NCBI GenBank assembly: GCA_028279345.1
Contig: JANQNY010000008.1
Coordinates: forward strand, 1 to 64,000
Origin: Geminicoccaceae bacterium
GTDB taxonomy: Bacteria > Pseudomonadota > Alphaproteobacteria > Geminicoccales > Geminicoccaceae
DNA: 64,000 bases
Reading direction: 5' to 3'
The position numbers were made by a program, and so were the translations under genes. Below the pieces are notes generated by a model. That model saw only the letters and a list, made by a program, of their open reading frames with translations, made no database searches and was not told the origin of the DNA. The stretch's first letter is position 1, and every line of letters begins with the position of its first letter. This document shows, in pieces, positions 1,055 to 52,814 of the stretch.

Positions 1055-1654
1055 ATGGCGTTGCGCACGGCGCTTCTCACCGCCCTCTGCATGGGGTTGT
1101 CGTTCGTCGACCAGGCGAGCGAGACCTACGCGTTCGACGACAGCCACACGCAGATTAGCTTCAGCTGGTCGCATTTCGGCCGACCTGTGCCGCCTGCATC
1201 GTTCACCGGCTTTACAGGAACCGTCGTGATCGATCAGGAAGATCTCGCGGCCTCCAAGGTCGATGTCACCATCGACGCGAGGACGCTGCGCACGGGGTTT
1301 GTGCTGCTCAACCCGATCATGGAGTCCGGTGCGTTCTTCGACGCGGCGCACTATCCCGAGATCCAATTCCGGTCCACCGGCGTCCGCCCAACCGACGCAA
1401 CGCGGGCAGAGATCGATGGCGAGCTCACGATGAAAGGGATCACGCGTCCGGTGGTGCTCGATGTGCAGCTGGTGGAGGGTGGCGCCGCCGGGGAGGCGTC
1501 TCATTCGGAAGCCGCCGCGAGCACACTTCAGTTTCGCGCCACGACGACGCTACGGCGCACCGCGTGGAAGCTCGGCGGGCAGTTGCCGTTCACTTCCGAT
1601 ACGGTCGACATCACCATTCAGGCGCAGCTCCTGGCGACAAAGGCCGACGGCTGA
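1055..1654 (+). CDS. YceI family periplasmic lipid-binding-like protein
   Basis: 199 residues with an N-terminal hydrophobic signal peptide (about residues 1-26) and then a lipocalin-like beta barrel. The mature part opens with a DDSHTQISFSWSHFG segment, the usual YceI start. It contains a V-D-V-T-I-D-A strand, the F-F-D-A-A-H-YP-E-IQF segment typical of the family and an E-L-T-M-K-G-ITRPV turn. YceI proteins bind isoprenoid or amide lipids in the periplasm; the ligand here is unknown. The start is supported by a GAAAAGG-like ribosome site 6-12 bases upstream. The next downstream reading frame is a decayed gene. Confidence 0.88.
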   Translation: MALRTALLTALCMGLSFVDQASETYAFDDSHTQISFSWSHFGRPVPPASFTGFTGTVVIDQEDLAASKVDVTIDARTLRTGFVLLNPIMESGAFFDAAHYPEIQFRSTGVRPTDATRAEIDGELTMKGITRPVVLDVQLVEGGAAGEASHSEAAASTLQFRATTTLRRTAWKLGGQLPFTSDTVDITIQAQLLATKADG

Positions 1655-1675
1655 CTTCGTCGCGACAGCGCGTCG

Positions 1676-3040
1676 GCATTTGACAGCAACGTTTTGCTGC
1701 TGGAGGCCGGCGGCGAGGCGAACTGGATCCGGACGACATCCCGGTCGGCTACCTCTTCACGCAGGACAACCCGCGCACGGATTGGTGCTTCAACACGGAG
1801 GTCGAACCAGGCTTGGGCGGCCGCGCCCTCAACTACCCGCGCGGGAAGGTCATCGGCCGCCGCTCGGCCATCAAAGGCATGATCGACATTCGAGGACAGG
1901 CGCGCGGCGCCGACGCCTTCCACGGCGCGGGCGGCGAGTGGCGCGTGGACGAGATGCGGCTTTCCTGGGAAATCCTGGATGCGTGGCGCGAGGCAGCGGC
2001 GGACTGCGGCGTCCCCCCCAACCGAGTACTTCAATCGCGGCGATAACGAGAGCTGCGGCTATCTCGAGGTAAGGCAACGCGGCGGTGTCCGCCTCCATAC
2101 CGGGACGGCGTCCCTTGAGCCTGTCCGCAAGCGTCCCAATCTCCGCGTTCTCACCAAGGCCCAAGCGACGCGAATCGCAGGCCAAGTCCTGCTCGCCGCC
2201 GGCTCGGTGGGCACGCCTCACCTCTTGGAGCTGTCGGGCATCGGTGACGGGGAGCGCCTGCAGGCGTTCGACATCGGCGTTCAACGTCACCGGCCCGACC
2301 TCGGCCAGAACCTGCAGGACGATCTGCAGCTCGGTCAGGCCTTCCGGGTCCAGGGGACGCGAACGCTGAACGAGCGGGCACGGACGCTCTGGGTAAGGCG
2401 CGCATGGCGCTCGCGTATGCGCTCTACAGGCGGAGCCCGTTGACGATGGCCCCAAGCCAGCATGGGGCATTCGCCAAGAGCGACCCGGCCATGGCCTCGC
2501 CGGATCTCCAATACCACGTGCAGCCACTGAGCCTGGAGCGTTTCGGCAAGCCGCTCCACCCGTTTCCGGTTCACGGCGTCGGTGTGCAACCTGCGCCCGA
2601 CGAGTCGCGGCAGTATCCGCGCGACCGCGGCGGATTGGCTGGCCAAGCCGGCGATCAGGCCGACCTACCTGGCGACCGACGAGGACCGGCGGACGGCCGC
2701 AGAGGCCATCCGTCTCAGCAGGCGCATCGCGGCAGCGGAGCCGCTGGCGCGGTTCGGGCGGGGTGCGGCCTTTGAGACCGACGGCGAACTGGTCACGGCA
2801 GCCGGTCAGATCGGAGCGACGATCGTCCAGCCCGTCGGCACCGGCCGAATGGGCACCGATCCGGAGGCCGTCGTCGACGCGCGCTTGCGTTTCAAGGGTC
2901 TGCAGAGGATCAGAATAGCCGATGCCTCGATCATGCCGACGATCACGTCCGGCAACACGAACGCGCCGACGCTGATGATCGCTGAGAAGGCTGCCGCCAT
3001 ACTGCGCGAGGACAGGAAGAGAACAAACTCAGGCGACTAG
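1676..3040 (+). pseudogene. Decayed GMC-family FAD oxidoreductase (choline dehydrogenase-like)
   Basis: A recognisable GMC oxidoreductase is spread over two alternating frames. LLLEAGGEANWI (about 1691) is followed after a shift by D-IPVGYLFTQDNPRTDW (about 1735) and an ALNYPRGKVIG segment (about 1827). Next come F-NRGDNESCGYLEV (about 2030), L-LAAGSVGTPHLLELSGIGD (about 2190), then a shift to M-APSQHGAFAKSDPA (about 2446), another shift to C-NLRPTSRGS (about 2583) and a C-terminal G-TGRMGTDPEAVVDARLRF...NTNAPTLMIAEKAA segment. The N-terminal GxGxxG FAD fold is missing and a stretch of roughly 40 residues is absent near 2172. The normally conserved GGCSSIN segment reads RRSAIK. At least four frame disruptions make this a pseudogene. 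A sequencing artefact would not explain the combined deletions and missing start. Confidence 0.85.
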
Positions 3041-3071
3041 CCGAAAGTTCTATGCTGCCACGCAAACGTCA

Positions 3072-3086
3072 TGTTGCGCTGCAGCA
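3072..3086. promoter_or_regulatory. PhaR-like operator upstream of phasin 1
   Basis: TGTTGC-GCT-GCAGCA, a near-perfect 6-3-6 palindrome 60 bases before the phasin start. The same pattern occurs twice before the second phasin. TGC/GCA-rich palindromes are the known binding sites of the PHA-responsive repressor PhaR in alphaproteobacteria. Assignment to PhaR is inference, as no phaR gene lies in the window. Confidence 0.6.
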
Positions 3087-3145
3087 TAATCAAGCGTAAG
3101 CAGAGTGGCGATCAATCGGTCGTCAACCAACGAGGTACCCGGGTC

Positions 3146-3508
3146 ATGAAGCCGCTTACGCTCCCGAATTTCGACATGGACAGCTTCGTCGCGCTCACCA
3201 AGGCAAACATGGATGCGCTGATGAAGGCGCAGACCGTCATGGCCGAGGCTTGCCAGGCGGCCGCGAAGATGCAGTACGGCTTCATGGCGGAATACGTCGA
3301 CCAGATGCAGGCGATGGCGGCCGGCAAGTTTGCCATGGAAAAGAAGCCCGAGGCGTACATGGCCGACATGAAGGCCGCGGCCGAGAAGGCGGTTTCCGTC
3401 GCCCAGATGCAGGTCGATCTAGGCATGAAGGCGCAAGCCGAGGCCATGGATCTTCTTACGAAGCGCGCCCAGGCCAACGTCAATGAGCTGCAGAAGCTCT
3501 CTGCCTAA
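3146..3508 (+). CDS. Phasin family protein 1
   Basis: 120-residue, almost entirely helical, Met/Ala/Gln-rich protein of the small phasin class (PF09361-like) that coats polyhydroxyalkanoate granules. It opens with M-KPLTLPNFDMDSF and then an amphipathic helix (ALTKANMDALMKAQTVMAEA). It ends with a second helix, AMDLLTKRAQANVNELQKL. The next gene encodes a diverged copy with the same layout, so this is a tandem duplication. The ATG at 3146 is chosen because homology to the copy begins there; a frame start at 3071 lies inside an operator-like palindrome. A strong stem-loop terminator follows the stop. No PHA synthase or depolymerase gene is in the window. Confidence 0.87.
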   Translation: MKPLTLPNFDMDSFVALTKANMDALMKAQTVMAEACQAAAKMQYGFMAEYVDQMQAMAAGKFAMEKKPEAYMADMKAAAEKAVSVAQMQVDLGMKAQAEAMDLLTKRAQANVNELQKLSA

Positions 3509-3567
3509 ACCTAGCTAGGCGCCTTTGCCGAGCGTCGGCGGCTGTCCGCCGACACCGGCCGGAACGA

Positions 3568-3595
3568 GGCCCCGGACATCGGTCCGGGGCCTTTT
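3568..3595 (+). terminator. Rho-independent terminator after phasin 1
   Basis: Perfect 10-bp stem GGCCCCGGAC / GTCCGGGGCC with a four-base loop, followed directly by TTTT. It lies 60 bases after the phasin 1 stop and separates the two phasin transcription units. Confidence 0.85.
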
Positions 3596-3693
3596 CCTTG
3601 CGTAGCGTCGCCCGGGCTCGTCTGGCGGCCATTTGGCTGGTGGCCGCCGGAACGGTTGCCGGATGGGAAGGCCAACACTTTACGAAGGTGTTA

Positions 3694-3708
3694 TGTTGCG
3701 ATGCAGCA
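3694..3708. promoter_or_regulatory. PhaR-like operator, distal site before phasin 2
   Basis: TGTTGC-GAT-GCAGCA palindrome, matching the site before phasin 1. Together with the next site it forms a tandem pair whose starts are 18 bases apart, placing both on nearly the same DNA face. Binding by a PhaR-type repressor is inferred. Confidence 0.6.
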
Positions 3709-3711
3709 TTT

Positions 3712-3726
3712 TGTTGCAGCGCAGCA
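3712..3726. promoter_or_regulatory. PhaR-like operator, proximal site before phasin 2
   Basis: TGTTGC-AGC-GCAGCA palindrome ending 43 bases before the phasin 2 start codon, so it would overlap the promoter or early leader. It is the second copy of a tandem pair. Confidence 0.6.
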
Positions 3727-3769
3727 TGAATGGGCGTATATAGAAATCCGGCCCCCAGGAGTAACCAGA

Positions 3770-4138
3770 ATGAAGACACCTCCCCTCTCCACTCCCATGC
3801 TCGACATCGACGGCTTGGTCGCGATGCAGCGTGCGAACGTCGACACGCTGGTCCAGGCGCAGTCGATCATCATGCAAGCTTGCCAGGTGGCCGCCGAGGC
3901 GCAGTGCAGCTTTCTCGCCGATTGCGCCGATCGCATCGAATCGGTGACGCGCGGCGAACTCGACGTGGGGAAGCGGCCGCAGGCCTATGTGGCCGACATG
4001 CACGCCGCTGCCGAGAAGGCCATTGCCGTTGCGCAGTCGCATGTCGACCTGGGTATCCGCGCCAACGCCGAAGCCATCGATCTGCTGGCCAAGCGCGCCC
4101 GCGCCAACGTCGACGAACTGCAGCGGCTCGCCGCCTGA
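3770..4138 (+). CDS. Phasin family protein 2
   Basis: 122-residue paralogue of the preceding phasin, aligned end to end. Shared pieces include ML-DIDGLVAMQRANVDTLVQAQ, V-ADMHAAAEKAIAVAQ, and DLLAKRARANVDELQRLAA near the end. It probably coats PHA granules. The ATG is preceded by AGGAG at 3757-3761 with 8 bases of spacing, which fixes the start. Tandem operator-like palindromes precede it, so expression is likely tied to PHA content. It is more acidic and has fewer Met residues than its partner, suggesting some divergence of role. Confidence 0.87.
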   Translation: MKTPPLSTPMLDIDGLVAMQRANVDTLVQAQSIIMQACQVAAEAQCSFLADCADRIESVTRGELDVGKRPQAYVADMHAAAEKAIAVAQSHVDLGIRANAEAIDLLAKRARANVDELQRLAA

Positions 4139-4200
4139 ACGAAGCACGCATGAGCCGACAGGACGTAGGCCTCCTCCCTACCTATGTTGTCTGAAGGCTG

Positions 4201-4227
4201 AGCCCCGGGCGCACCGCTCCCGGGGCT
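4201..4227 (+). terminator. Stem-loop after phasin 2
   Basis: AGCCCCGGG / CCCGGGGCT 9-bp perfect stem with a 9-base loop, followed by CCTTGCGTTT rather than a clean T run. Position after the phasin 2 stop and before sfsA suggests a terminator of moderate strength. Confidence 0.6.
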
Positions 4228-4263
4228 CCTTGCGTTTGGCCCCTGCCCCGCCACCTCCAAGCC

Positions 4264-4968
4264 ATGTCGTCCCCGCCGCAGCTCGTCAGCGCCCGTCTCA
4301 TTCGTCGCTACAAGCGCTTTCTCGCCGACGTCGTTCTCGAGGATGGTCGCGAAGCTACGGCTCACTGCCCGAACCCGGGCCGGATGCTCGGCCTCAACGC
4401 ACCTGGAGCCAAAGTCTGGCTGCGGCCCGCGCCGCCGGGGAGGAAGCTTCCCCTCACGATGGAACTCGTCGAGGCTGAAGGGACCCTGGTCGGCATCAAC
4501 ACCCACGTGCCTAATCGGCTCGTACGTCGCGCCCTCACCGTGGGGCGCGTGCCCGAGCTGGCCGGCTATGATGCGCTGCGCGGCGAGGTCACCTACGGTC
4601 ACGAACGTTCGCGGATCGACTTTCTGCTCGAAGACCCTGTGCGCGGTCGCTGTTGGGTTGAGGTCAAGAACGTGCATTGGCGGGTCGGTGATTTCGCACG
4701 TTTTCCCGATGCGGTGACCAGTCGTGGCGCCAAGCACTTGCGTGAGCTCGCAGCACAAGTCGCAATTGGCGAACGTGCGGCGATGGTCTACGTCGTACAG
4801 CGTAATGACTGCGAGCGGCTCGGGCTCGCCCGTGATATCGATCCAGCTTACGCAGATGCCTGTGCCAGGGCGGCAACCGCAGGTGTCGAGTTCTTGGCCT
4901 ATGCGTGCCGCGTGAGCTTGGAGGGGATCGAGCTGGCTCACCCGATGGATATCGACCTGGAAGCCTAA
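4264..4968 (+). CDS. sfsA: DNA/RNA nuclease SfsA
   Basis: 234 residues, the normal length for SfsA. Family marks are an OB-like N-terminus (RLIRRYKRFLADVVLEDGR), the A-HCPNPGRM motif near residues 35-43, a nuclease-like core with S-RIDFLL and W-VEVKNV (an acidic/E-x-K pattern of PD-(D/E)XK folds) and FPDAVTSRGAKHLREL. SfsA was named for sugar fermentation stimulation in E. coli; nuclease activity is known for the family, the physiological role less so. The stop is 3 bases before map, so the two are almost certainly co-transcribed. Confidence 0.92.
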   Translation: MSSPPQLVSARLIRRYKRFLADVVLEDGREATAHCPNPGRMLGLNAPGAKVWLRPAPPGRKLPLTMELVEAEGTLVGINTHVPNRLVRRALTVGRVPELAGYDALRGEVTYGHERSRIDFLLEDPVRGRCWVEVKNVHWRVGDFARFPDAVTSRGAKHLRELAAQVAIGERAAMVYVVQRNDCERLGLARDIDPAYADACARAATAGVEFLAYACRVSLEGIELAHPMDIDLEA

Positions 4969-4971
4969 CGG

Positions 4972-5781
4972 ATGTACCGCAACAGCTCCGGCCAATCCCG
5001 ATCGCAGGCGGTGCCCCTGCACGGCGCCGCGGCGTTCGATGGCATGCGCCGCGCAGGCCGCCTTGCGGCCGAAATCCTGGACATGATCGAGCCCTACGTG
5101 CGTCCGGGCGTGACGACCGGCGAGCTCGATCGGCTGTGTCACCAGGCCATCAGCAAGGCTGACGCGACACCGGCGCCGCTCGGCTATCGGGGCTACCCGA
5201 AGGCCACCTGCATCTCGCTCAACCACGTGGTCTGCCATGGCATCCCTGGCGACCGGGTGCTCAGGGACGGCGACATTCTCAACATCGACGTCACCGTCGT
5301 TCTCGGCGGTTGGCATGGCGACAGCTCGCGCATGTACTTCGCCGGCAATCCGGCGCTCAAGGCGCGTCGGCTCTGCCGCGTCGCTTTCGAGGCACTATGG
5401 AAGGGCATCGAGCAGGTGCGGCCCGAAGCGACGCTCGGCGACATCGGTGCCGCGATCCAGACCCACGCCGAATCGCATCGGTGCTCGGTCGTCCGGGACT
5501 ATTGCGGGCACGGCATCGGACGGGTGTTCCACGATGCCCCAAGCGTGCTGCACTACGGCAAGCCCGGCGAGGGGCTGACCCTAGAGCCTGGGATGATTTT
5601 CACGATCGAGCCGATGATCAACCTCGGCACCTTCGAAACCAAGCTGCTCGGCGACAGTTGGACCGTGGTCACCAAGGACCGGCAGCTTTCGGCACAGTTC
5701 GAGCATACGGTGGGCGTCACCGAAGAGGGCTGCGAGGTCTTCACGCTGTCACCCGCCGGTCGACATCACCCGACCTGGTGA
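4972..5781 (+). CDS. map: Methionine aminopeptidase, type I
   Basis: 269-residue cytosolic metalloprotease that removes the initiator methionine from nascent proteins. The five metal ligands are visible: D106 (NIDVTV), D117 (WHGDSSRM), H180 (CGHGIG), E213 (IEPM) and E244 (QFEHT). Substrate-side H89 is in V-CHGIPG. There is no zinc-finger N-terminal extension, so it is type Ia. It starts 3 bases after sfsA stops and is followed 6 bases later by radC, forming an sfsA-map-radC unit. The ATG at 4972 gives a slightly longer N-terminus than usual; a GTG at 5011 is possible. Confidence 0.94.
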   Translation: MYRNSSGQSRSQAVPLHGAAAFDGMRRAGRLAAEILDMIEPYVRPGVTTGELDRLCHQAISKADATPAPLGYRGYPKATCISLNHVVCHGIPGDRVLRDGDILNIDVTVVLGGWHGDSSRMYFAGNPALKARRLCRVAFEALWKGIEQVRPEATLGDIGAAIQTHAESHRCSVVRDYCGHGIGRVFHDAPSVLHYGKPGEGLTLEPGMIFTIEPMINLGTFETKLLGDSWTVVTKDRQLSAQFEHTVGVTEEGCEVFTLSPAGRHHPTW

Positions 5782-5787
5782 GACGCC

Positions 5788-6774
5788 ATGGCCGGCTTCT
5801 GGGCCAACCTCCTCGGCGGTCACACGCCGCTTCAACCGGCGGATGAACTCGAAGCCTGCGGCCTCCTGGTACGCGCGACCGATCGGGGTTTCGTCGTCAG
5901 CGGTGAGACCTACCGACATCATCAGGCGTTACGCCGCGCGGGCGGGCACTGGCAGGCCGAGGCCAAGAGCTGGCTCTTCGAGGATGGCGAGGCATTGGCC
6001 ACCGTCGCGGCGCTGATCCGAGCACCCGCGTCCGCCGGCCTCGCCGAGCAGCACGCCCCCTTCGTGGACAAGCCACTCGCGCACGGCACCAAGCACTATC
6101 ACGGGCATCGCGATCGGCTGCGTCAGCGCTTCCTCGAGGTCGGCGGCGAGGCACTCGCCGATTACGAGCTTCTGGAGCTGCTGCTCTTTTTCTCGATCCG
6201 CACGCGAGACACCAAACCGCTCGCCAAGGCGCTGATCACGCGCTTCGGCAGCCTTGCAGCCGTTCTGGCGGTCGAGTCGTCGCGGCTCGCCGAGATCGCC
6301 GAGTTTCGAGACGATCAGGAACGGCGCTTCACATCGGTGCTGCTTCGGCTCGTTCGCGAGATCGACGTTCGCGCGCAACGCGCAGGCCTCAGCGGCGCGC
6401 CTGTCATCGGCTCCCCCGAGGCGCTCGAAGCCTATCTGGCATCGGCCTTCTCTCACGAGGCGGTCGAGGAGTTCCACGCGCTCTTCCTCGACACGCAGAA
6501 CCGTCTGATGCGCGACGAGTGCCTCGGGCGCGGCACCGTCGATCACACGCCCCTTTATCCGCGCGAGATCGCGAAGCGGGCGCTCGAGCTGGGTGCCGTG
6601 GCGCTGATCCTTGTCCACAACCATCCATCCGGCGATCCGACCCCGTCGCCCGAGGACGTAGCGACCACCCGCCGGGTCATCGAGGCTCTCGAACCGCTGA
6701 ATATCCTCGTCTACGACCACGTCATCGTCGGCAAGGGGCGCCAGACGAGCTTCCGCGGCGAAGGGCTGCTGTAG
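5788..6774 (+). CDS. radC: RadC/JAB-domain protein with extra N-terminal module
   Basis: 328 residues, about 100 longer than ordinary RadC. Residues 105-200 hold the helix-hairpin-helix part (YELLELLLFFSIRTRDTKPLAKALI). Residues 207-328 hold the JAB/MPN metalloprotease-like domain with a complete JAMM motif: H277-x-H279, S287, D290. Residues 16-78 are an added module with HHQALRRAGGHWQAEAKSWLF, resembling short K-x-W modules seen in DNA-metabolism proteins; this likeness is impressionistic. The 'radC' name is historical and the molecular function of RadC is not settled. Co-directional with sfsA and map. Confidence 0.88.
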   Translation: MAGFWANLLGGHTPLQPADELEACGLLVRATDRGFVVSGETYRHHQALRRAGGHWQAEAKSWLFEDGEALATVAALIRAPASAGLAEQHAPFVDKPLAHGTKHYHGHRDRLRQRFLEVGGEALADYELLELLLFFSIRTRDTKPLAKALITRFGSLAAVLAVESSRLAEIAEFRDDQERRFTSVLLRLVREIDVRAQRAGLSGAPVIGSPEALEAYLASAFSHEAVEEFHALFLDTQNRLMRDECLGRGTVDHTPLYPREIAKRALELGAVALILVHNHPSGDPTPSPEDVATTRRVIEALEPLNILVYDHVIVGKGRQTSFRGEGLL

Positions 6775-6798
6775 CGGCCGCCATCGATCCTGGAGGCC

Positions 6799-7689
6799 TC
6801 AGCGCCGTGGGATCGTAGCTTGCCAAGGAGTGGGCTCGACGCTGATGAGCCGGCGTCCCAAGCCCACCAGCACCAGCGCCGAGGCGTTCATCGCCAACAC
6901 GTAGAGCACCGCCGGCACCATCAGCTCGGGCACGCCGAGCACGCTGCCGCCCAGGAACAAAGCGAGCGCCACGTTCTGCAGACCACACTCGATGCCGAGG
7001 GTGACCGCGACGCGATCGCCAAGGCGGAGCGCCCGCGCCAGGAAGAGCCCGCCGCACACCGCAAGGGCGTTGAAAGCAACGACCGCCGCGCCCACCGACT
7101 GCCACCCCGCCTCGACGATGGCCCAGTCGCGGACGAAGGCGGCGAGCACGATGGCGATGAACAGGAGGGTCGCGAGCATTCGCGCCGCCGGCAGCAGCTG
7201 CGCCGTCCTCTGCGGAAACCAATGACGGACGATCATCCCCACCGTGAGCGGCAGGAGCGTCACCAGCAGCACCGCGCGCACCGTGGCGATGAGCGAGAGC
7301 CGGTCGGGGAGAATGACCCCTTGCGGGTCGAACAGTGCGACCGCCGCGGCGAGCATGAGCGGCACCGTCACCAGGCCCAAAGCCGTCGTCGCCGCGGTCA
7401 TCACCACCGAGAGTGCTGCATCGCCTCGAGCCAGAACGGTGATGAAGTTCGAGGTGACACCGCCGGGCACGCAGGCCACCAGCACCAGACCGAGCGCCAC
7501 GACAGGCGGTAGGTCGAACACGACGGCGCAAAAGGCCGCGAGTACAGGCAGCCCCAGCGTCTGGACGAGTACGCCTGCGGTCAACGCGCTGAGTCGGCCC
7601 GCCACCGCACGAAAATCCGCGAGCGCGAGGCCCAGGCCCACCGTCACCATGATGCAGGCAAGACCGAGCGGGATGAACCAAGAGGTCAA
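6799..7689 (-). CDS. Bile acid:sodium symporter (BASS) family transporter
   Basis: 296 residues with about nine or ten hydrophobic segments and almost no soluble loops, typical of the BASS fold. The C-V-PGGVTSNFITVLARGDAALS segment in the first half and GIECGLQNVALALFLGG in the second are the paired crossover regions of sodium-coupled BASS carriers. Substrate (bile acid, pantoate, pyruvate or other organic anion) cannot be told. The frame opens with TTG at 7689, which lacks a clear ribosome site; an ATG 13 codons inside would shorten the first membrane segment, so TTG is preferred. It converges with radC and stands alone. Confidence 0.82.
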   Translation of the reverse strand: MTSWFIPLGLACIMVTVGLGLALADFRAVAGRLSALTAGVLVQTLGLPVLAAFCAVVFDLPPVVALGLVLVACVPGGVTSNFITVLARGDAALSVVMTAATTALGLVTVPLMLAAAVALFDPQGVILPDRLSLIATVRAVLLVTLLPLTVGMIVRHWFPQRTAQLLPAARMLATLLFIAIVLAAFVRDWAIVEAGWQSVGAAVVAFNALAVCGGLFLARALRLGDRVAVTLGIECGLQNVALALFLGGSVLGVPELMVPAVLYVLAMNASALVLVGLGRRLISVEPTPWQATIPRR

Positions 7690-46600: not shown

Positions 46601-47008
46601 ATGAGCAGCGAGACCCACGGCGCCATCTGGTGGAGCGAGCTGGCGACGCGCAACCCGGAAGAGGCCAGCATCTTCTGTGCGCGCATCTATGGCTGGGACA
46701 TCGAGGAGACGGAGATGCACGACGGCAGCATCTACCGGGTCTGCAAGCAGCACGGACGGCCCATCGCGGGCATTTTCGACATCGCCAACGCACCTGCCAT
46801 GCCACAGGACCTGTCTCCGCATTGGATGACCTATATCGCCGTCGACGACGTCGACGCCGCGGTCGCCGAGGTCGCGCTAGCCGGTGGTCAAATCGCCCAG
46901 CCGCCCTTCGACATTCCGATGGTCGGACGGATCGCCATGATCGTCGACCCGACGGGCGCAACCGTCGGCATCATCACGCCGGCACCACCGCCGCCGATGG
47001 CCGCCTGA
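46601..47008 (+). CDS. VOC (glyoxalase-like) family protein
   Basis: 135 residues. It has paired beta-alpha-beta-beta-beta modules: a first W-WSELATRNPEEASIFCARIYGW and a second W-MTYIAVDDVDAAVAEVALAGGQIAQPPFDIPMVGRIAMIVDPTGA. The close of each module matches vicinal-oxygen-chelate proteins, which bind a metal. The enzymatic role is not assignable. A GGAG-type ribosome site precedes ATG 46601. It lies upstream of the YHS/bufferin genes with a 190-base gap and may be separate. Confidence 0.82.
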   Translation: MSSETHGAIWWSELATRNPEEASIFCARIYGWDIEETEMHDGSIYRVCKQHGRPIAGIFDIANAPAMPQDLSPHWMTYIAVDDVDAAVAEVALAGGQIAQPPFDIPMVGRIAMIVDPTGATVGIITPAPPPPMAA

Positions 47009-47197: not shown

Positions 47198-47725
47198 ATG
47201 ATCAGCCTTTCGACCGCGCGACGCGGGCTCTTCGGCCTCGCGGCAGCATTGGGATTGACGCTCGGCGGCGCCGCTTGGGCCGCGGACGCGATGCCCAAGA
47301 ACGTCGACGACGACGGCCTCGCGCTGCGCGGCTACGATCCGGTCGCCTACTTTGAGGAGGGTGCACCGACGCGTGGCTCCGCCGAGCACAGCGCGACGTT
47401 CGACGGTGCCACCTACCATTTCGCCACAGCCGCCAACCGCGAGGCCTTCGAAGCCGATCCTGCGCGCTTCGTGCCGGCCTATGGCGGCTATTGCGCTTTC
47501 GGGACCGCCATGGGCCGCAAGTTCGATGGCGATCCCGAGGTTTGGAAGATCGTCGATGACAAGCTCTACCTGAACCTGAATCCTGGCGTGCAGAAGCGCT
47601 GGGAAGGCAACATTCCGGGTTTCGTCGACACCGCGGACCACAACTGGTCGCTCATCGAGAACGTTGCCGACGCAACGCTCGCCACCGAGGCGCCCGCAGG
47701 CGTTCGACTCGGTGCAGCGCAGTAG
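47198..47725 (+). CDS. Secreted YHS-domain protein
   Basis: 175 residues with a signal peptide (1-27, GGAAWAAD). After an [16 protein letters not shown] lead, the YHS core is [46 protein letters not shown] domains are short, metal-associated modules with heavy-metal links. It ends with [27 protein letters not shown], a common tail of this subgroup. ATG 47198 begins the signal. It is 46 bases before the bufferin precursor gene in the same direction, so it may be part of that copper-related operon. Confidence 0.85.
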
Positions 47726-47771
47726 CGGTAGGCATCGTGCCTTTAGCCATCGATCCGAGGAGGGAAGACTG

Positions 47772-48068
47772 ATGAAATCTGCCGCCGCTCTGTTGAGCAC
47801 CGCCTTCGTCGCCGCTGCCGGAGTGACCGCCAGTGGTGGCGCCAACGCCGAAGACATGGTGAAGTGCTACGGCATCTCGCTCGCTGGTCAGAACGATTGC
47901 GCTGCCGGGCCGGGAACGAGCTGCGCCGGCACGTCGACGATCGACTACCAGGGCAATGCCTGGAAGCTCGTGCCGGCTGGCACGTGCGAGGAGACCACCA
48001 TCACCACGGCCGACGGCCGCGAGATCAAGGGCAGCCTCGAGGAGCTCGACCGCGACCTCCCGTCCTGA
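47772..48068 (+). CDS. bufA: Bufferin-type RiPP precursor (DUF2282, BufA)
   Basis: 98 residues. A signal peptide (1-26, SGGANA) is followed by a small core with four cysteines at 32, 43, 51 and 72: [29 protein letters not shown] and L-VPAGTCEE. This matches DUF2282 bufferin precursors. In characterised members the MNIO enzyme BufB converts cysteines to thiooxazole-type groups and the secreted peptide binds copper. Modification here is inferred from context. ATG 47772 has a strong GAGGAGGG site with 7 bases of spacing, stronger than those of downstream genes, suiting a high-yield precursor. A hairpin pair follows the stop. Confidence 0.93.
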
Positions 48069-48077
48069 CGTTCGGTT

Positions 48078-48115
48078 GCCTACCCGCCGGTGGGCGCCCT
48101 GCCCATCGGTGGGCA
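48078..48115 (+). other. Tandem hairpins between bufA and bufB
   Basis: Two stem-loops in series: GCCTACC / GGTGGGC (48078-48095, one G-U pair, 4-base loop) and TGCCCA / TGGGCA (48100-48115, loop TCGG). They may limit read-through or protect the bufA message, giving more precursor than enzyme. This function is inference. Confidence 0.5.
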
Positions 48116-48140
48116 CTTGTTCGACCGCCGGAGAGCCGAG

Positions 48141-48986
48141 ATGGCTGACCGCCTTCCACCGCGTGCCGGCGTAGGCTTCAAGCTGGAACACGCAACAGAC
48201 GTGCTCGACGGGCGGCCGGAAATCGGCTGGTTTGAGGTCCATCCCGAGAACTACATGGTCGATGGCGGTCCGCGGCATCGAGCGCTCGAAGCGCTTCGCG
48301 ACGCCTATCCGCTCTCGCTGCACGGCGTGGGGCTGTCGCTCGCAAGCGATGCCCCGCCCGATGCTGGTCACCTCGCTGCGCTCAAGGCGCTCATCGACCG
48401 CTACGATCCAGCATCGGTGTCGGAGCACCTCGCGTGGTCGGCGCACGGTGATCTCTATTTCGGCGACCTCTTCCCGGTGCCGCTGACCAACGCCGCGCTC
48501 GACCGCGTCGCCGACAACGTCGCGCGCGCGCAGGACGCGCTCGACCGGCGCATCCTCATCGAGAACCCGACGCACTATCTGAGGCCCAACGGCTCGGCCG
48601 AGGAGGAGGTCGCGTTCCTCACAACCATCGCCGCGAGAACCGGCTGCGGGCTCCTGGTCGACGTGAACAACATCCAGATCAGTGCCGCGAATGTCGGCTA
48701 CGATGCGGAAGCCTACATCGACGCGCTGCCGGTCGAGCTGATCGGCGAGGTGCACCTCGCCGGCTACGAGGAGGACGAGGGCGCCGAGGCGCTGTTGATC
48801 GACAGCCATGCGCGTCCCGTGCAGAGCGACGTGTGGCAACTGTTCCGGCGCCTCGTGGCGCGGGCGGGCGCGCTACCTACGCTCGTCGAATGGGACAATG
48901 ATGTGCCCGCTTGGCAGGTCCTCTACGCGGAGGCGCAGAAAGCGGAGCTTTGCCTCCGCGCGCACGCGACCGGGCACGCCGCTTGA
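48141..48986 (+). CDS. bufB: MNIO family RiPP-modifying oxidase (DUF692, BufB)
   Basis: 281 residues of the multinuclear non-heme iron oxidase family. It has a TIM-barrel-like fold with candidate metal ligands in LHGVGLSL, SEHLAWS, IENPTHYL, L-VDVNNIQISAANVGYD, G-EVHLAGY, LIDSHARPV and VEWDNDVPAW. Start region VGFKLEHATDVLD is usual for DUF692. It is predicted to modify BufA cysteines in the cytosol before export. ATG 48141 begins the conserved part; a GTG at 48090 adds residues covering the hairpins. The bufC TTG start overlaps its stop. Confidence 0.93.
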   Translation: MADRLPPRAGVGFKLEHATDVLDGRPEIGWFEVHPENYMVDGGPRHRALEALRDAYPLSLHGVGLSLASDAPPDAGHLAALKALIDRYDPASVSEHLAWSAHGDLYFGDLFPVPLTNAALDRVADNVARAQDALDRRILIENPTHYLRPNGSAEEEVAFLTTIAARTGCGLLVDVNNIQISAANVGYDAEAYIDALPVELIGEVHLAGYEEDEGAEALLIDSHARPVQSDVWQLFRRLVARAGALPTLVEWDNDVPAWQVLYAEAQKAELCLRAHATGHAA

Positions 48987-49741
48987 GCACGTTGGGCGCA
49001 TTTCAACAGCGCTTCGCCGAAGCAGCGCTCGACGCGCACGGTGATGCCGCACCGTCCGGCCTAGACGAGGCCGACCGACGCCGGTTCCGCGTCTACCGCA
49101 ACAACGTCCGCCATGGCCTGATCGAGGCGCTGGGTGCAGCCTATCCGAGCGTCCGTCGCCTGGTGGGCGATGCGTTCTTCAGGGCGATGGCCGGCGCCTT
49201 CGTCGTCGCACACCCCCCGACCAGCCGCTCGCTCGCCCTCTACGGCGAAGGGTTCGCCGCGTTCATCGCCGACTTCGAGCCGGCCACGAGCGTGCCCTAT
49301 CTCGCCGATGTCGCCCGCCTCGAACGGGCGGTGCTCGAAGCGATGCACAGCGCCGATGCGGCACCCCTCGATCCGGGCTCGGTGACGGCGCTCGGCGAGG
49401 CGGTCGACGAGGCGGCGTTCGTGCCGCATCCGGCAACATGCGTGGTCGTCTCGCCGCATCCCATCGTCGCCCTCTGGCGCGCCCAGCAGGAGGACGCCGG
49501 TCCGTTGACCATTGCGGACCGGGCCGAGACGGCTCTCGTCACCCGGCCCGACGAGCGCGTTCAGGTGCTTGCACTGGAAGCCGCAACCGGCCGCTTCGTT
49601 ATGGAGCTGCTTGGCGGTTCGCGACCGACCGCTGCACTTGCCGTGGCCCAGCGCGTTTCGCCCCGCTTCGATGCTCTCGAGGCCTTCCAGCATCTGCTCG
49701 CGACCGGCGCGCTCACCGCCGTGATCCCGGCAGGCCCCTAG
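48983..49741 (+). CDS. bufC: BufC-type partner protein (DUF2063)
   Basis: 252 residues. The N-terminal DUF2063 domain shows L-STLGAFQQRFAEAAL, RFRVYRNNVRHGLIEALGAAYP, VRRLVGDAFF, A-HPPTSRSLALYGEGFAAFI and PYLADVARLER. A second half of about 110 residues follows. DUF2063 proteins pair with DUF692 enzymes and act as recognition or scaffold partners; the family was once called putative DNA-binding, which is not supported here. The start is TTG 48983, overlapping the bufB stop as TTGA, so the two are translationally coupled. No better start is present. Confidence 0.9.
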   Translation: MSTLGAFQQRFAEAALDAHGDAAPSGLDEADRRRFRVYRNNVRHGLIEALGAAYPSVRRLVGDAFFRAMAGAFVVAHPPTSRSLALYGEGFAAFIADFEPATSVPYLADVARLERAVLEAMHSADAAPLDPGSVTALGEAVDEAAFVPHPATCVVVSPHPIVALWRAQQEDAGPLTIADRAETALVTRPDERVQVLALEAATGRFVMELLGGSRPTAALAVAQRVSPRFDALEAFQHLLATGALTAVIPAGP

Positions 49742-49752
49742 GAGGAATTCTC

Positions 49753-50250
49753 ATGACGGACGCCGATCAGGTCGCTGACGCTAGTGCCGGCGGCCCCATC
49801 GCCGGGCTGCGGCACGTTCAGGCGCGCATCGACGCGTGGGCCACGAGCCTGACGCCCTTAGCGCTCCTGCTGCTCCGCCTGCCGGTAGCCTGGGTGTTCT
49901 GGCGCTCGGGACGCACCAAGGTCGAGGGCTGGAACATTTTCAGCATCACACCGAGCCAGCCCTTTCTCTTCGAGCACGAGTTCGGCATGCCTTTTCCGGT
50001 CCTGAGCGCGCACGTTACCGCCATCGCTGAGCACGTCTTGCCGATCCTGCTCGTGCTCGGGCTGGCCACGCGGTTCAGCGCATTGGGCCTCCTCATCATG
50101 ACCGCGGTCATCCAGCTCTTCATCTTCCCCGGCGCCTGGGCTAGCACGCACATGTGGTGGGCGGTGACGCTCGTGGCCGTGCTGATCCTCGGTCCTGGCA
50201 AGCTCTCGCTCGACTACCTGTTCGGACGCGCATTTGGTGGAGCACGATGA
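49753..50250 (+). CDS. DoxX-family membrane protein (bufferin operon)
   Basis: 165 residues, four membrane helices. The first is L-TPLALLLLRLPVAWVFWRSGRTK, followed by E-FGMPFPVLSAHVTAIAEHVLPILLVLGL and two more after. DoxX proteins often complete bufA-bufB-bufC operons (sometimes as bufD); their job is not established. A perfect AGGAGG at 49740-49745 with 7 bases of spacing precedes ATG 49753. The stop overlaps the next start (ATGATG). Confidence 0.88.
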   Translation: MTDADQVADASAGGPIAGLRHVQARIDAWATSLTPLALLLLRLPVAWVFWRSGRTKVEGWNIFSITPSQPFLFEHEFGMPFPVLSAHVTAIAEHVLPILLVLGLATRFSALGLLIMTAVIQLFIFPGAWASTHMWWAVTLVAVLILGPGKLSLDYLFGRAFGGAR

Positions 50251-50714
50251 TGGTTAGGCTGGCACTCGTTCTCGCGTTGTTTGGTGCGAGCCCCGCGGCG
50301 GCGGAGCTGTTCGACAAGCCCGGCTGGGTGATCATGCCGACCGAGCACGACTACGCGACGCTCATCGAGCGTACCAACGCGGCCGTCGAGGCGAGCCCGC
50401 TCGGCGTGGTCACGCGCGCGAGCGCCACGGTCGGCGCGCAGAACATAGGCGAGACGATCCCCGGCAACATGGTCGTGGGCGTCTTCGCCCCACCCTTCGC
50501 CGTCCGCATGCTCGACGCCAGCGTCCAGGCCGGCATCGAGGCTCCCTTGCGCCTCTACCTGACCGAGAACGACGACGGCACGGCCACCCTCAGCTACCGC
50601 ACCGCCACCCACGTCTTCGCCCCCTATACCGACGGCGGCTTCGAACTCGAAGACCTAGCCGGCGAGCTCGACGGCATCCTCGCCGCGATCGCGGAAAACG
50701 CGGCGGGGAGCTGA
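50247..50714 (+). CDS. Secreted DUF302 protein (bufferin operon)
   Basis: 155 residues with a signal peptide (1-20, ASPAAAEL). A single DUF302 domain follows: D-YATLIERTNAAVEASPLGVVTRASATVGAQNIGETIPGNMVVGVFAPPFAVRML and A-PLRLYLTENDDGTATLSYRTATHVFAPY. DUF302 has no known function but recurs near metal and sulfur genes. Start ATG 50247 overlaps the DoxX stop; the second ATG at 50250 is possible. Its coupling to the bufferin genes suggests a periplasmic partner of the copper peptide, an inference. Confidence 0.85.
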   Translation: MMVRLALVLALFGASPAAAELFDKPGWVIMPTEHDYATLIERTNAAVEASPLGVVTRASATVGAQNIGETIPGNMVVGVFAPPFAVRMLDASVQAGIEAPLRLYLTENDDGTATLSYRTATHVFAPYTDGGFELEDLAGELDGILAAIAENAAGS

Positions 50715-51205
50715 GGTGCGCGCTTGATCGTGGCGTGACCGCGCCGCCTCGCGGCAGCGGCCTCGTCGTCGACTGCGACTTGTCGATCGGTTGCAGATCT
50801 TTGAGCCCGTCCAGACCCGCTTCCGATAAGGCCGTTTCCAGTCCCGGAAGCCGGTCCGGTCCACCCGGCCCCCGCGGCACGCCTCGCTTGCACTGCCGAG
50901 CGTGTCCGTCGGCTCACTGACCTTCGGCCGCCGGTGTGCCAGCTCGGTCCAGAGGCCTTTGAGTTCGTGCGCTTGCGGGTCGTGGTTCCTGACTTCGCTA
51001 TTCCCGTTTGCCACGAGGTCGACCCAGACCGGGCCGCACGGCAGGGAGGTCAAGCGAGCACATACGTGTTCTATTAGAGGATCATAAATTCATCACACGA
51101 GCCATTGATGGAACATCTGCTCTCCGAATCGCTTGAAGTCTCTGCAATGATCTATAAATGATGCATGAAGCGTCTTTGGCGTCTATTCATGGATCGAACG
51201 GAGCG
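50715..51205. other. Gap holding a transposase relic and AT-rich hipBA leader
   Basis: 491 bases with no intact gene. The first half carries decayed transposase-like coding on the minus strand (see separate entry). From about 51065 it turns AT-rich (TATTAGAGGATCATAAATTCA, ATGATCTATAAATGATGC), probably the hipBA promoter and operator zone. I found no clean HipB-type TATCC-N8-GGATA operator. Confidence 0.5.
50755..50890 (-). pseudogene. Fragment of an IS481/integrase-type transposase
   Basis: Read on the minus strand, two frames give R-VDRTGFRDWKRPYRKR and then GLDGLKDLQPIDKSQSTT. This pair resembles the N-terminal helix-turn-helix part of IS481-like transposases (V-SRTG-YRWKRRY ... GLEGLKDLPPIHKS). 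A frameshift lies between them and nothing of the catalytic DDE domain remains. The fragment flanks hipBA, in line with past insertion. Confidence 0.45.
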
Positions 51206-51544
51206 ATGGCGAAGCCTGCCCACCGAAGCTATTCCCGGTATGCTCGCGAAGCTGCGGAGCTTCTGGGGCTCATGATCCATAACGCGCGCACAGAGCGCGA
51301 TCTCACGGTCGCCGATGTCGCGGAGCGCGCCGGGATCTCGCGTGGCCTTGTCCACCGGATCGAGAAGGGCGAAATGGGCTCATCCATCGGTGCGGCCTTC
51401 GAAGTGGCCGCCATCGTCGGGCTGCGCCTCTTCCAAGCCGAGCCGACAACTCTGACCCGGCACCTGTCGATGGAACGCGACAAGTTCACCCTGCTTCCGA
51501 AAGCCGTTCGCGCGGGAAGGACCAAGGTGAACGATGACTTCTGA
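51206..51544 (+). CDS. hipB: HipB-like XRE antitoxin
   Basis: 112 residues with an XRE helix-turn-helix: L-IHNARTERDLTVADVAERAGISRGLVHRIEKGEMGSSIG. It binds DNA and the HipA toxin, repressing the operon. ATG 51206 begins MAKPAHRSYSRYAREAAELLG and has ACGGAG upstream; earlier in-frame starts at 51158 lie in the AT-rich leader. The gene overlaps hipA by 11 bases, a typical toxin-antitoxin arrangement. Confidence 0.85.
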   Translation: MAKPAHRSYSRYAREAAELLGLMIHNARTERDLTVADVAERAGISRGLVHRIEKGEMGSSIGAAFEVAAIVGLRLFQAEPTTLTRHLSMERDKFTLLPKAVRAGRTKVNDDF

Positions 51545-52814
51545 GCGCCCCGCGACCAAAGCGCCGGAAGAGGCTTATGTCTGGTTGTGGCTGCCCAACG
51601 CAACGGAACCCATCGTCGCCGGTCGCATCGCGCGCGACGGCGAGCGGCTGATCTTCAACTACGGCCAGAGCTATCTCGACCGGAACAATCGCGTCTCGAT
51701 CTATGAGCCGGAGCTACCGTTGCGCAGCGGCGCCATTGCGCCTGAGGTCGGACTAAGGATGGCCGGATGCCTGCGCGACGCGGCGCCCGATGCGTGGGGC
51801 CGTCGTGTGATCTTGAACCGAACCTTTGGACGCAAGGGCAAGGACATAGATGCCGGCGCGTTGGACGAACTCATCTACCTGTTGGAGTCGGGATCCGACC
51901 GCGTTGGCGCATTGGACTTCCAGCGATCCCCTACCGAGTACCAGCCGCGCGCCGTCCAAGCCGCGACGCTCGAGGAGTTGCTGAGCGCCGCCGAGAAAGT
52001 CGAGAACGGTGTGCCGCTGACGCCCGATCTCGATCAGGCGCTCTATCACGGCACTTCGCTGGGCGGCGCGCGCCCGAAGGCCATGATCCAGGATGGCGAC
52101 ACGAAGATGATCGCCAAGTTCGCTTCCTCCACGGACACGTACAACGTGGTGAAGGGGGAGTATCTCGCCATGCGGCTTGCCGCAAAAATTGGCCTCGACG
52201 TCGCCCCCGTGCGACTCGAGCGGGCCGCGGGCAAGGATGTGCTGCTGGTCGAGCGCTTCGACCGTATCCGTACCGTTGGCGAATGGACGCGCAAGGCGAT
52301 GGTCTCGGCACTCACGCTGTTCGGCCTCGACGAGATGATGGCGCGTTACACCAGCTATGAGGACCTTGCAGAAATCGTCCGCCACCGTTTTACGTCGCCG
52401 AAGGCGACGCTGCATGAGTTGTACGGACGATTGGTATTCAACATTCTGTGCGGCAACACAGATGACCATGCTCGCAATCACGCAGGGTTCTGGGACGGCG
52501 AACACCTGACGCTGACACCCGCCTATGATATCTGCCCGCAAAGCCGCACCGGCAACGTGGCCCGCCAGGCGATGCTGATCGTCGGGAACGATCGGACGAG
52601 CAGCCTCGCGACCTGCCTCGAGGCGGCGCCTAAGTTCCAGCTCGATGCAAAGGCAGCAAAGGACATCATCGTTCGGCAGATCAGCACCGTCCGCGATGGA
52701 TGGAACGATATCTGCGAGGAGGCGGAATTGACTGAGGTTGAGCGCAGCCTGTTCGAGCAGCGCATCTTTTTGAACAGCTTCATCTTCGAAGGCACGCCGG
52801 AGGCTTTGCGATGA
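51534..52814 (+). CDS. hipA: HipA-like serine/threonine kinase toxin
   Basis: 426 residues. N-terminal subdomain has F-NYGQSYLDRNNRVSIYEPELP and a P-loop-like region LYHGTSLGGARPKA; the kinase core has MIAKFASSTDTYNVVKGEYLAMRLA, D-VLLVERFDR, and the catalytic loop C-GNTDDHARNHAGFW with L-TPAYDICP as the metal Asp. HipA phosphorylates a cellular target (GltX in E. coli), inducing dormancy. The catalytic residues look intact. The C-terminus is complete. It overlaps hipB by 11 bases. Confidence 0.9.
   Translation: MTSERPATKAPEEAYVWLWLPNATEPIVAGRIARDGERLIFNYGQSYLDRNNRVSIYEPELPLRSGAIAPEVGLRMAGCLRDAAPDAWGRRVILNRTFGRKGKDIDAGALDELIYLLESGSDRVGALDFQRSPTEYQPRAVQAATLEELLSAAEKVENGVPLTPDLDQALYHGTSLGGARPKAMIQDGDTKMIAKFASSTDTYNVVKGEYLAMRLAAKIGLDVAPVRLERAAGKDVLLVERFDRIRTVGEWTRKAMVSALTLFGLDEMMARYTSYEDLAEIVRHRFTSPKATLHELYGRLVFNILCGNTDDHARNHAGFWDGEHLTLTPAYDICPQSRTGNVARQAMLIVGNDRTSSLATCLEAAPKFQLDAKAAKDIIVRQISTVRDGWNDICEEAELTEVERSLFEQRIFLNSFIFEGTPEALR

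Follow-up and report, generated by a model that had tools for sequence, protein, structure and literature searches.

Within the 64,000-nucleotide stretch of Geminicoccaceae DNA analysed here (the window), positions 47198-50714 hold a single tight run of plus-strand genes in the order YHS, bufA, bufB, bufC, doxX and DUF302. The six domains assigned to these genes by an initial annotation of the DNA were all recovered by profile matches. The head gene (47198..47725) encodes a YHS_seleno-family protein of 175 aa (NF041384, PF04945), and is followed by bufA (47772..48068), encoding a Buf1/DUF2282 precursor with a signal peptide and four Cys (PF10048, 86.5 bits against a cut-off of 22.4), and bufB (48141..48986), encoding the MNIO (DUF692) bufferin maturase (PF05114, 326.5 bits). 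Next are bufC (48983..49741; DUF2063 partner, PME type 1, TTG start; PF09836, 89.4 bits), doxX (49753..50250; HvfX-like membrane protein; PF07681, 67.1 bits) and a gene for a secreted DUF302 protein (50247..50714; PF03625, 36.9 bits against a cut-off of 23). The initial annotation had described the starts in the set as coupled. This held for bufB/bufC and doxX/DUF302, each pair overlapping by 4 bp with the downstream start spanning the upstream stop, but not for YHS and bufA, which are separated by 46 bp, a gap that makes a separate bufA promoter possible. The remaining gaps measure 72 bp (bufA/bufB) and 11 bp (bufC/doxX), and bufA is preceded by its own ribosome-binding site (gaggagg). Sec-like signal peptides were found by inspection in BufA, YHS and DUF302, in keeping with their earlier description as secreted proteins. 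In genome-wide profile searches the host genome contained one MNIO gene, one DUF2282 gene and two YHS_seleno genes. No sigma-70 promoters or terminators in the window exceeded the level found in shuffled sequence. Flanking the set, a glyoxalase/VOC-family gene (46601-47008) precedes YHS by 189 bp in the same orientation; at another locus, L142, YHS is also closely preceded by a co-oriented glyoxalase-family gene (5587-6084). A HipB/HipA-like gene pair, recognized by eye, lies downstream at 51158-52814.

Judged by their sequences, the core genes are an ordinary Buf1 bufferin cluster, which agrees with the identity first given to them: DUF2282, MNIO, DUF2063 and DoxX were all matched, and BufB scored above the equivalog cut-off for bufferin maturases (NF050167 MNIO_BufB, 357.5 bits against 310). 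In line with its earlier description as a secreted four-Cys protein, the precursor has a signal peptide and four conserved Cys, spaced C-x10-C-x7-C-x20-C and aligning with those of Caulobacter, Pseudomonas and other Buf1 peptides. In BufB, the ligand-type residues H61, H96, E141, D174, H205, D221, H223, E250 and D252 are kept in essentially all 137 rows of a BufB alignment, N177 is also conserved, and a homologue is present in the PDB (3BWW, E 3e-38). Both the PME-type 1 DUF2063 partner and the DoxX protein that a Buf1 cluster demands are present, the latter scoring 64.7 bits with NF050144, under its cut-off of 80.

The window shares the four-Cys DUF2282 protein, BufB, BufC and DoxX, in the same order, with the Buf1 clusters of Caulobacter (CC3254-CC3257; PMC12452194, PMC3511200), but adds YHS at the head and DUF302 at the tail, and has neither a sigma-F-type motif ahead of YHS or bufA nor, anywhere in the genome, NrsF. 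It likewise has DUF2282, DUF692, DUF2063 and DoxX in common with gigPABT of Cupriavidus metallidurans and the Legionella GIG operon, which respond to copper and gold and for which, unlike the window, neither YHS nor DUF302 is mentioned (PMC10304878, PMC5413113). The Cupriavidus operon further differs in that it is transcribed divergently from a gene for an ECF sigma factor.

The head protein matches the whole YHS_seleno_dom family model at twice its cut-off (NF041384, 148.8 bits against 70), and the shorter PF04945 model just above threshold (30.5 bits against 30.3). Its sole Cys, C99, is among the 11 columns that are invariant across 58 YHS sequences, whether linked to bufferin genes or not. 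What sets the protein apart from YHS_seleno_dom proteins at large is its clade, which has many bufferin-linked members and carries the signature GGYCAFGxAMGxKFDGDP. An AlphaFold model of it has a core pLDDT of about 98 and found no whole-domain match among solved structures with Foldseek; phmmer, profile searches of the PDB and Foldseek returned only toluene monooxygenases and axonemal proteins, matched over their short YHS core. Our search found no function for the YHS_seleno_dom family (NF041384). That the window's YHS is a selenoprotein was ruled out, as its gene has no in-frame stop (UGA) and C99 is an ordinary Cys.

We profile-searched 386 alphaproteobacterial genomes for DUF2282 and YHS_seleno, at least 142 of which matched the former and at least 115 the latter. 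A YHS gene immediately preceded DUF2282, in the same orientation, in at least 11 genomes from seven families (G000, G064, G073, G138, G177, G230, G263, G297, G325, G366, G367; 11 of the 142 DUF2282-positive genomes, among the matches listed), while random placement is expected to yield at most 0.02. The window's own order contributed four more (G010, G017, G027, G028), and a search of 397 genomes of the phylum added four loci from a single family (f177) of a class other than Alphaproteobacteria: one each in G415 and G684, and two in G658. The recurrence of YHS around DUF2282/DUF692/DUF2063, which the initial annotation had put forward as a check, is found in both classes, and YHS is a real, recurrent partner of bufferin clusters. 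A named example, by database annotation, is the mobilizable (MOBQ) plasmid NZ_CP139716.1 of the hydrothermal-plume strain Thalassobaculum sp. OXR-137, where the run reads YHS-DUF2282-DUF692-DUF2063-DoxX-sigma factor-NrsF (L189 5944-10507, equivalent to 1214-5777 of the plasmid).

On the DNA of these loci we confirmed the order YHS-bufA-bufB-bufC-doxX at all but two. At L130 (G073, 5506-6868) the run is YHS-bufA-doxX, and at L143 (G658, 3506-5307) it is YHS-thioredoxin-bufA-doxX; bufBC are missing locally at both, and in each genome another bufA locus, this one accompanied by bufBC, lies elsewhere (L144, L180). The retention of YHS at these bufBC-less loci ties it to bufA and doxX. Gaps between YHS and bufA were about 33-183 bp, plus two outliers of 373 and 482 bp. 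Most bufferin loci are without YHS (of the 80 BufB loci nearest to the window's in the genome collection, 76 have none), so it is dispensable for the core function.

A tree of 61 YHS proteins split the linked ones into two groups, both occupying the same position relative to bufA. Group A comprises six rows (support 100/99: G017, G027, G028, G325, G366, G367); group B comprises 18 rows (support 93/89), 13 of them linked, and takes in the f177 loci as well as the window, whose own family has members of both groups. For many YHS_seleno proteins, five of them in the window's clade, the gene lies far from any bufferin locus. On a BufB tree of 119 rows, built with a quick method, the YHS-linked BufBs were scattered, and the YHS label needed about ten changes, at least three of them on well-supported branches, so YHS has repeatedly joined, or been lost from, buf operons.

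The YHS-linked loci also differ from other bufferin loci in their promoters. We searched for the motif GTA[AT]C, 15-18 nt, CG[TA][AT], which we take to be the sigma-F promoter of Caulobacter, an assignment supported by its strong over-representation in the loci searched. The motif preceded bufA in 48 of the 109 loci without YHS, those of Caulobacter included, and was found at none of the 20 YHS-linked loci, either upstream of YHS or upstream of bufA (Fisher p 6e-5, uncorrected for relatedness). In the window itself a GTAAC-N16-CG promoter lies upstream of neither gene and, with NrsF absent from the host genome by profile search, there is no SigF/NrsF pair. The Thalassobaculum locus does have such a pair despite lacking the motif, so the promoter sequence may differ there. 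YHS-headed clusters appear to be a class that does not use the sigma-F promoter known from classical bufferins. The placing of YHS in a wider set than the core, as the initial annotation had it, is supported by this regulatory difference together with the neighbourhood census in two classes of Pseudomonadota and the two YHS lineages.

Other regulators, and genes for metal or redox functions, were found beside several YHS genes. Related AraC regulators with a Cupin_6 domain lie near YHS at six linked loci (L143 2561-3382; L144 2690-3514; L145 5786-6616; L142 6816-7664; L129 3700-4563; L130 7316-8416), namely the four f177 loci and those of G297 and G073. Their best NCBIfam match is RclR, a reactive-chlorine regulator, far below its cut-off. 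The same Pfam architecture occurs beside a buf-free YHS gene in G325 (L184 5589-6533). In G263 genes for a CDF pump and for a MerR regulator (best NCBIfam match CueR) lie upstream; a thioredoxin gene stands between YHS and bufA in G658 (L143); and in G113 a group-B YHS gene sits beside cusB/cusA-like efflux genes, with bufA about 4 kb off and the bufferin operon on the other strand (L138 1-4109 and 7596-10307). The window has no adjacent regulator gene, and crude dyad counting upstream of YHS revealed no shared operator beyond near relatives.

Taking these observations together, we consider it probable that the window holds an alphaproteobacterial Buf1 operon producing a thiooxazole-containing copper-buffer peptide, accompanied by a recurrent periplasmic YHS helper and a lineage-specific DUF302 protein. 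Copper binding by Buf1 peptides, and the pattern of modified central Cys and an outer disulphide, have been described previously (PMC12452194), and by analogy with such characterised relatives the window's peptide would form thiooxazoles and chelate copper. BufB, a multinuclear iron oxidase, and BufC would convert the two central BufA cysteines to thiooxazoles in the cytoplasm; BufA would then be exported by Sec, its outer cysteines would form a disulphide, and the mature peptide would chelate excess copper in the periplasm, with DoxX supporting envelope redox homeostasis. YHS, secreted to the same compartment, would act with the peptide as a copper/thiol protein through C99, either binding or passing copper or keeping thiols, those of the peptide or others, in their proper state. 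From its gene context a metal-handling role for YHS is plausible, and copper/thiol handling with the peptide is the most likely one. More tentatively, YHS proteins may be dedicated periplasmic partners of Buf1 peptides, recruited at least twice, in a class of clusters where AraC (RclR-like) or MerR-type control replaces the sigma-F promoter.

Alternatively, YHS could be a protein of the metal- or oxidant-stress response, co-regulated with the bufferin genes through a common promoter and acting on neither the peptide nor its copper. Buf-free YHS genes beside the same type of regulator in G325 (L184) and on a Pseudoalteromonas plasmid (L190) indicate that AraC and YHS also form a unit independently of buf genes, and it is possible that the AraC-YHS pairing, with or without buf genes, is a conserved unit; clade-B YHS genes also stand alone in Ruegeria and G323. 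Set against this, YHS is always upstream and on the same strand at linked buf loci, with two lineages in one position, and it is kept with bufA and doxX at L130 and L143, where bufBC are missing. We therefore regard mere co-regulation as rather unlikely. It is highly improbable that YHS and buf are simply neighbours in a horizontally spreading cassette, with no functional coupling: one YHS-buf operon is on a mobilizable plasmid and the linked BufBs are scattered over their tree, but a single travelling cassette does not explain two YHS lineages in the same slot. That BufB/BufC act on YHS as a further substrate, modifying its single Cys, is scarcely credible, for although YHS is secreted, has one invariant Cys and is encoded next to an MNIO, and MNIOs have been proposed to modify proteins as well (PMC12452194), all 58 YHS rows share that Cys irrespective of linkage, and YHS stays with bufA-doxX where bufBC are locally absent.

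The 2025 survey of bufferins describes their gene sets as almost bare cores; it found extra conserved genes in extremely low proportions, and admitted unrelated genes only if within 10 bp of a core gene (PMC12452194), a rule that would exclude YHS at the YHS-bufA gaps observed here. We found no mention of YHS in the texts of the bufferin survey or of the papers on fontiphorin, Cupriavidus gig, Microbulbifer and the Legionella GIG operon; in the open-licence literature we found no paper with 'YHS domain' and DUF2282 together, nor 'YHS domain' in the papers listed on DUF692/MNIO/DoxX. The bufferin core is already known, and what is new is the YHS-headed version, a variant and not a new kind of system, which seems to be under different regulation and to have gone undescribed until now. 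Bufferins rank with the largest peptide families produced by multinuclear iron oxidases, and a recurrent, position-conserved secreted partner offers an entry to the fate of the copper-loaded peptide in the periplasm. The partnership would also give the widespread YHS family, which is without a solved whole-domain structure, its first testable function.

The DUF302 gene has a much narrower distribution. DUF302 matched 59 of the 386 alphaproteobacterial genomes, and apart from the window genome only G113, one of the 58 other DUF302-positive genomes, had it near DUF2282 (1.4 kb away). A genus-mate carries an orthologue directly after doxX (L010/L090; 74% identical in L010), and the bufferin neighbourhood of Bradyrhizobium BTAi1 has a distant, convergent DUF302 gene. 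The earlier idea of DUF302 as a general part of the wider set is not supported, with recurrence confined to the window and its genus-mate plus the G113 and BTAi1 outliers. The census and a neighbourhood HMM search led us to reject it as a general bufferin component; DUF302 was added in this lineage specifically, and its conservation does not extend beyond the genus. The window's DUF302 protein has no Cys, and its gene is translationally coupled to doxX. Separately, at L187 and L188, from two genomes of family f21, YHS_seleno, CoA-binding-like, histidine-biosynthesis and DUF302 genes occur within a few kb.
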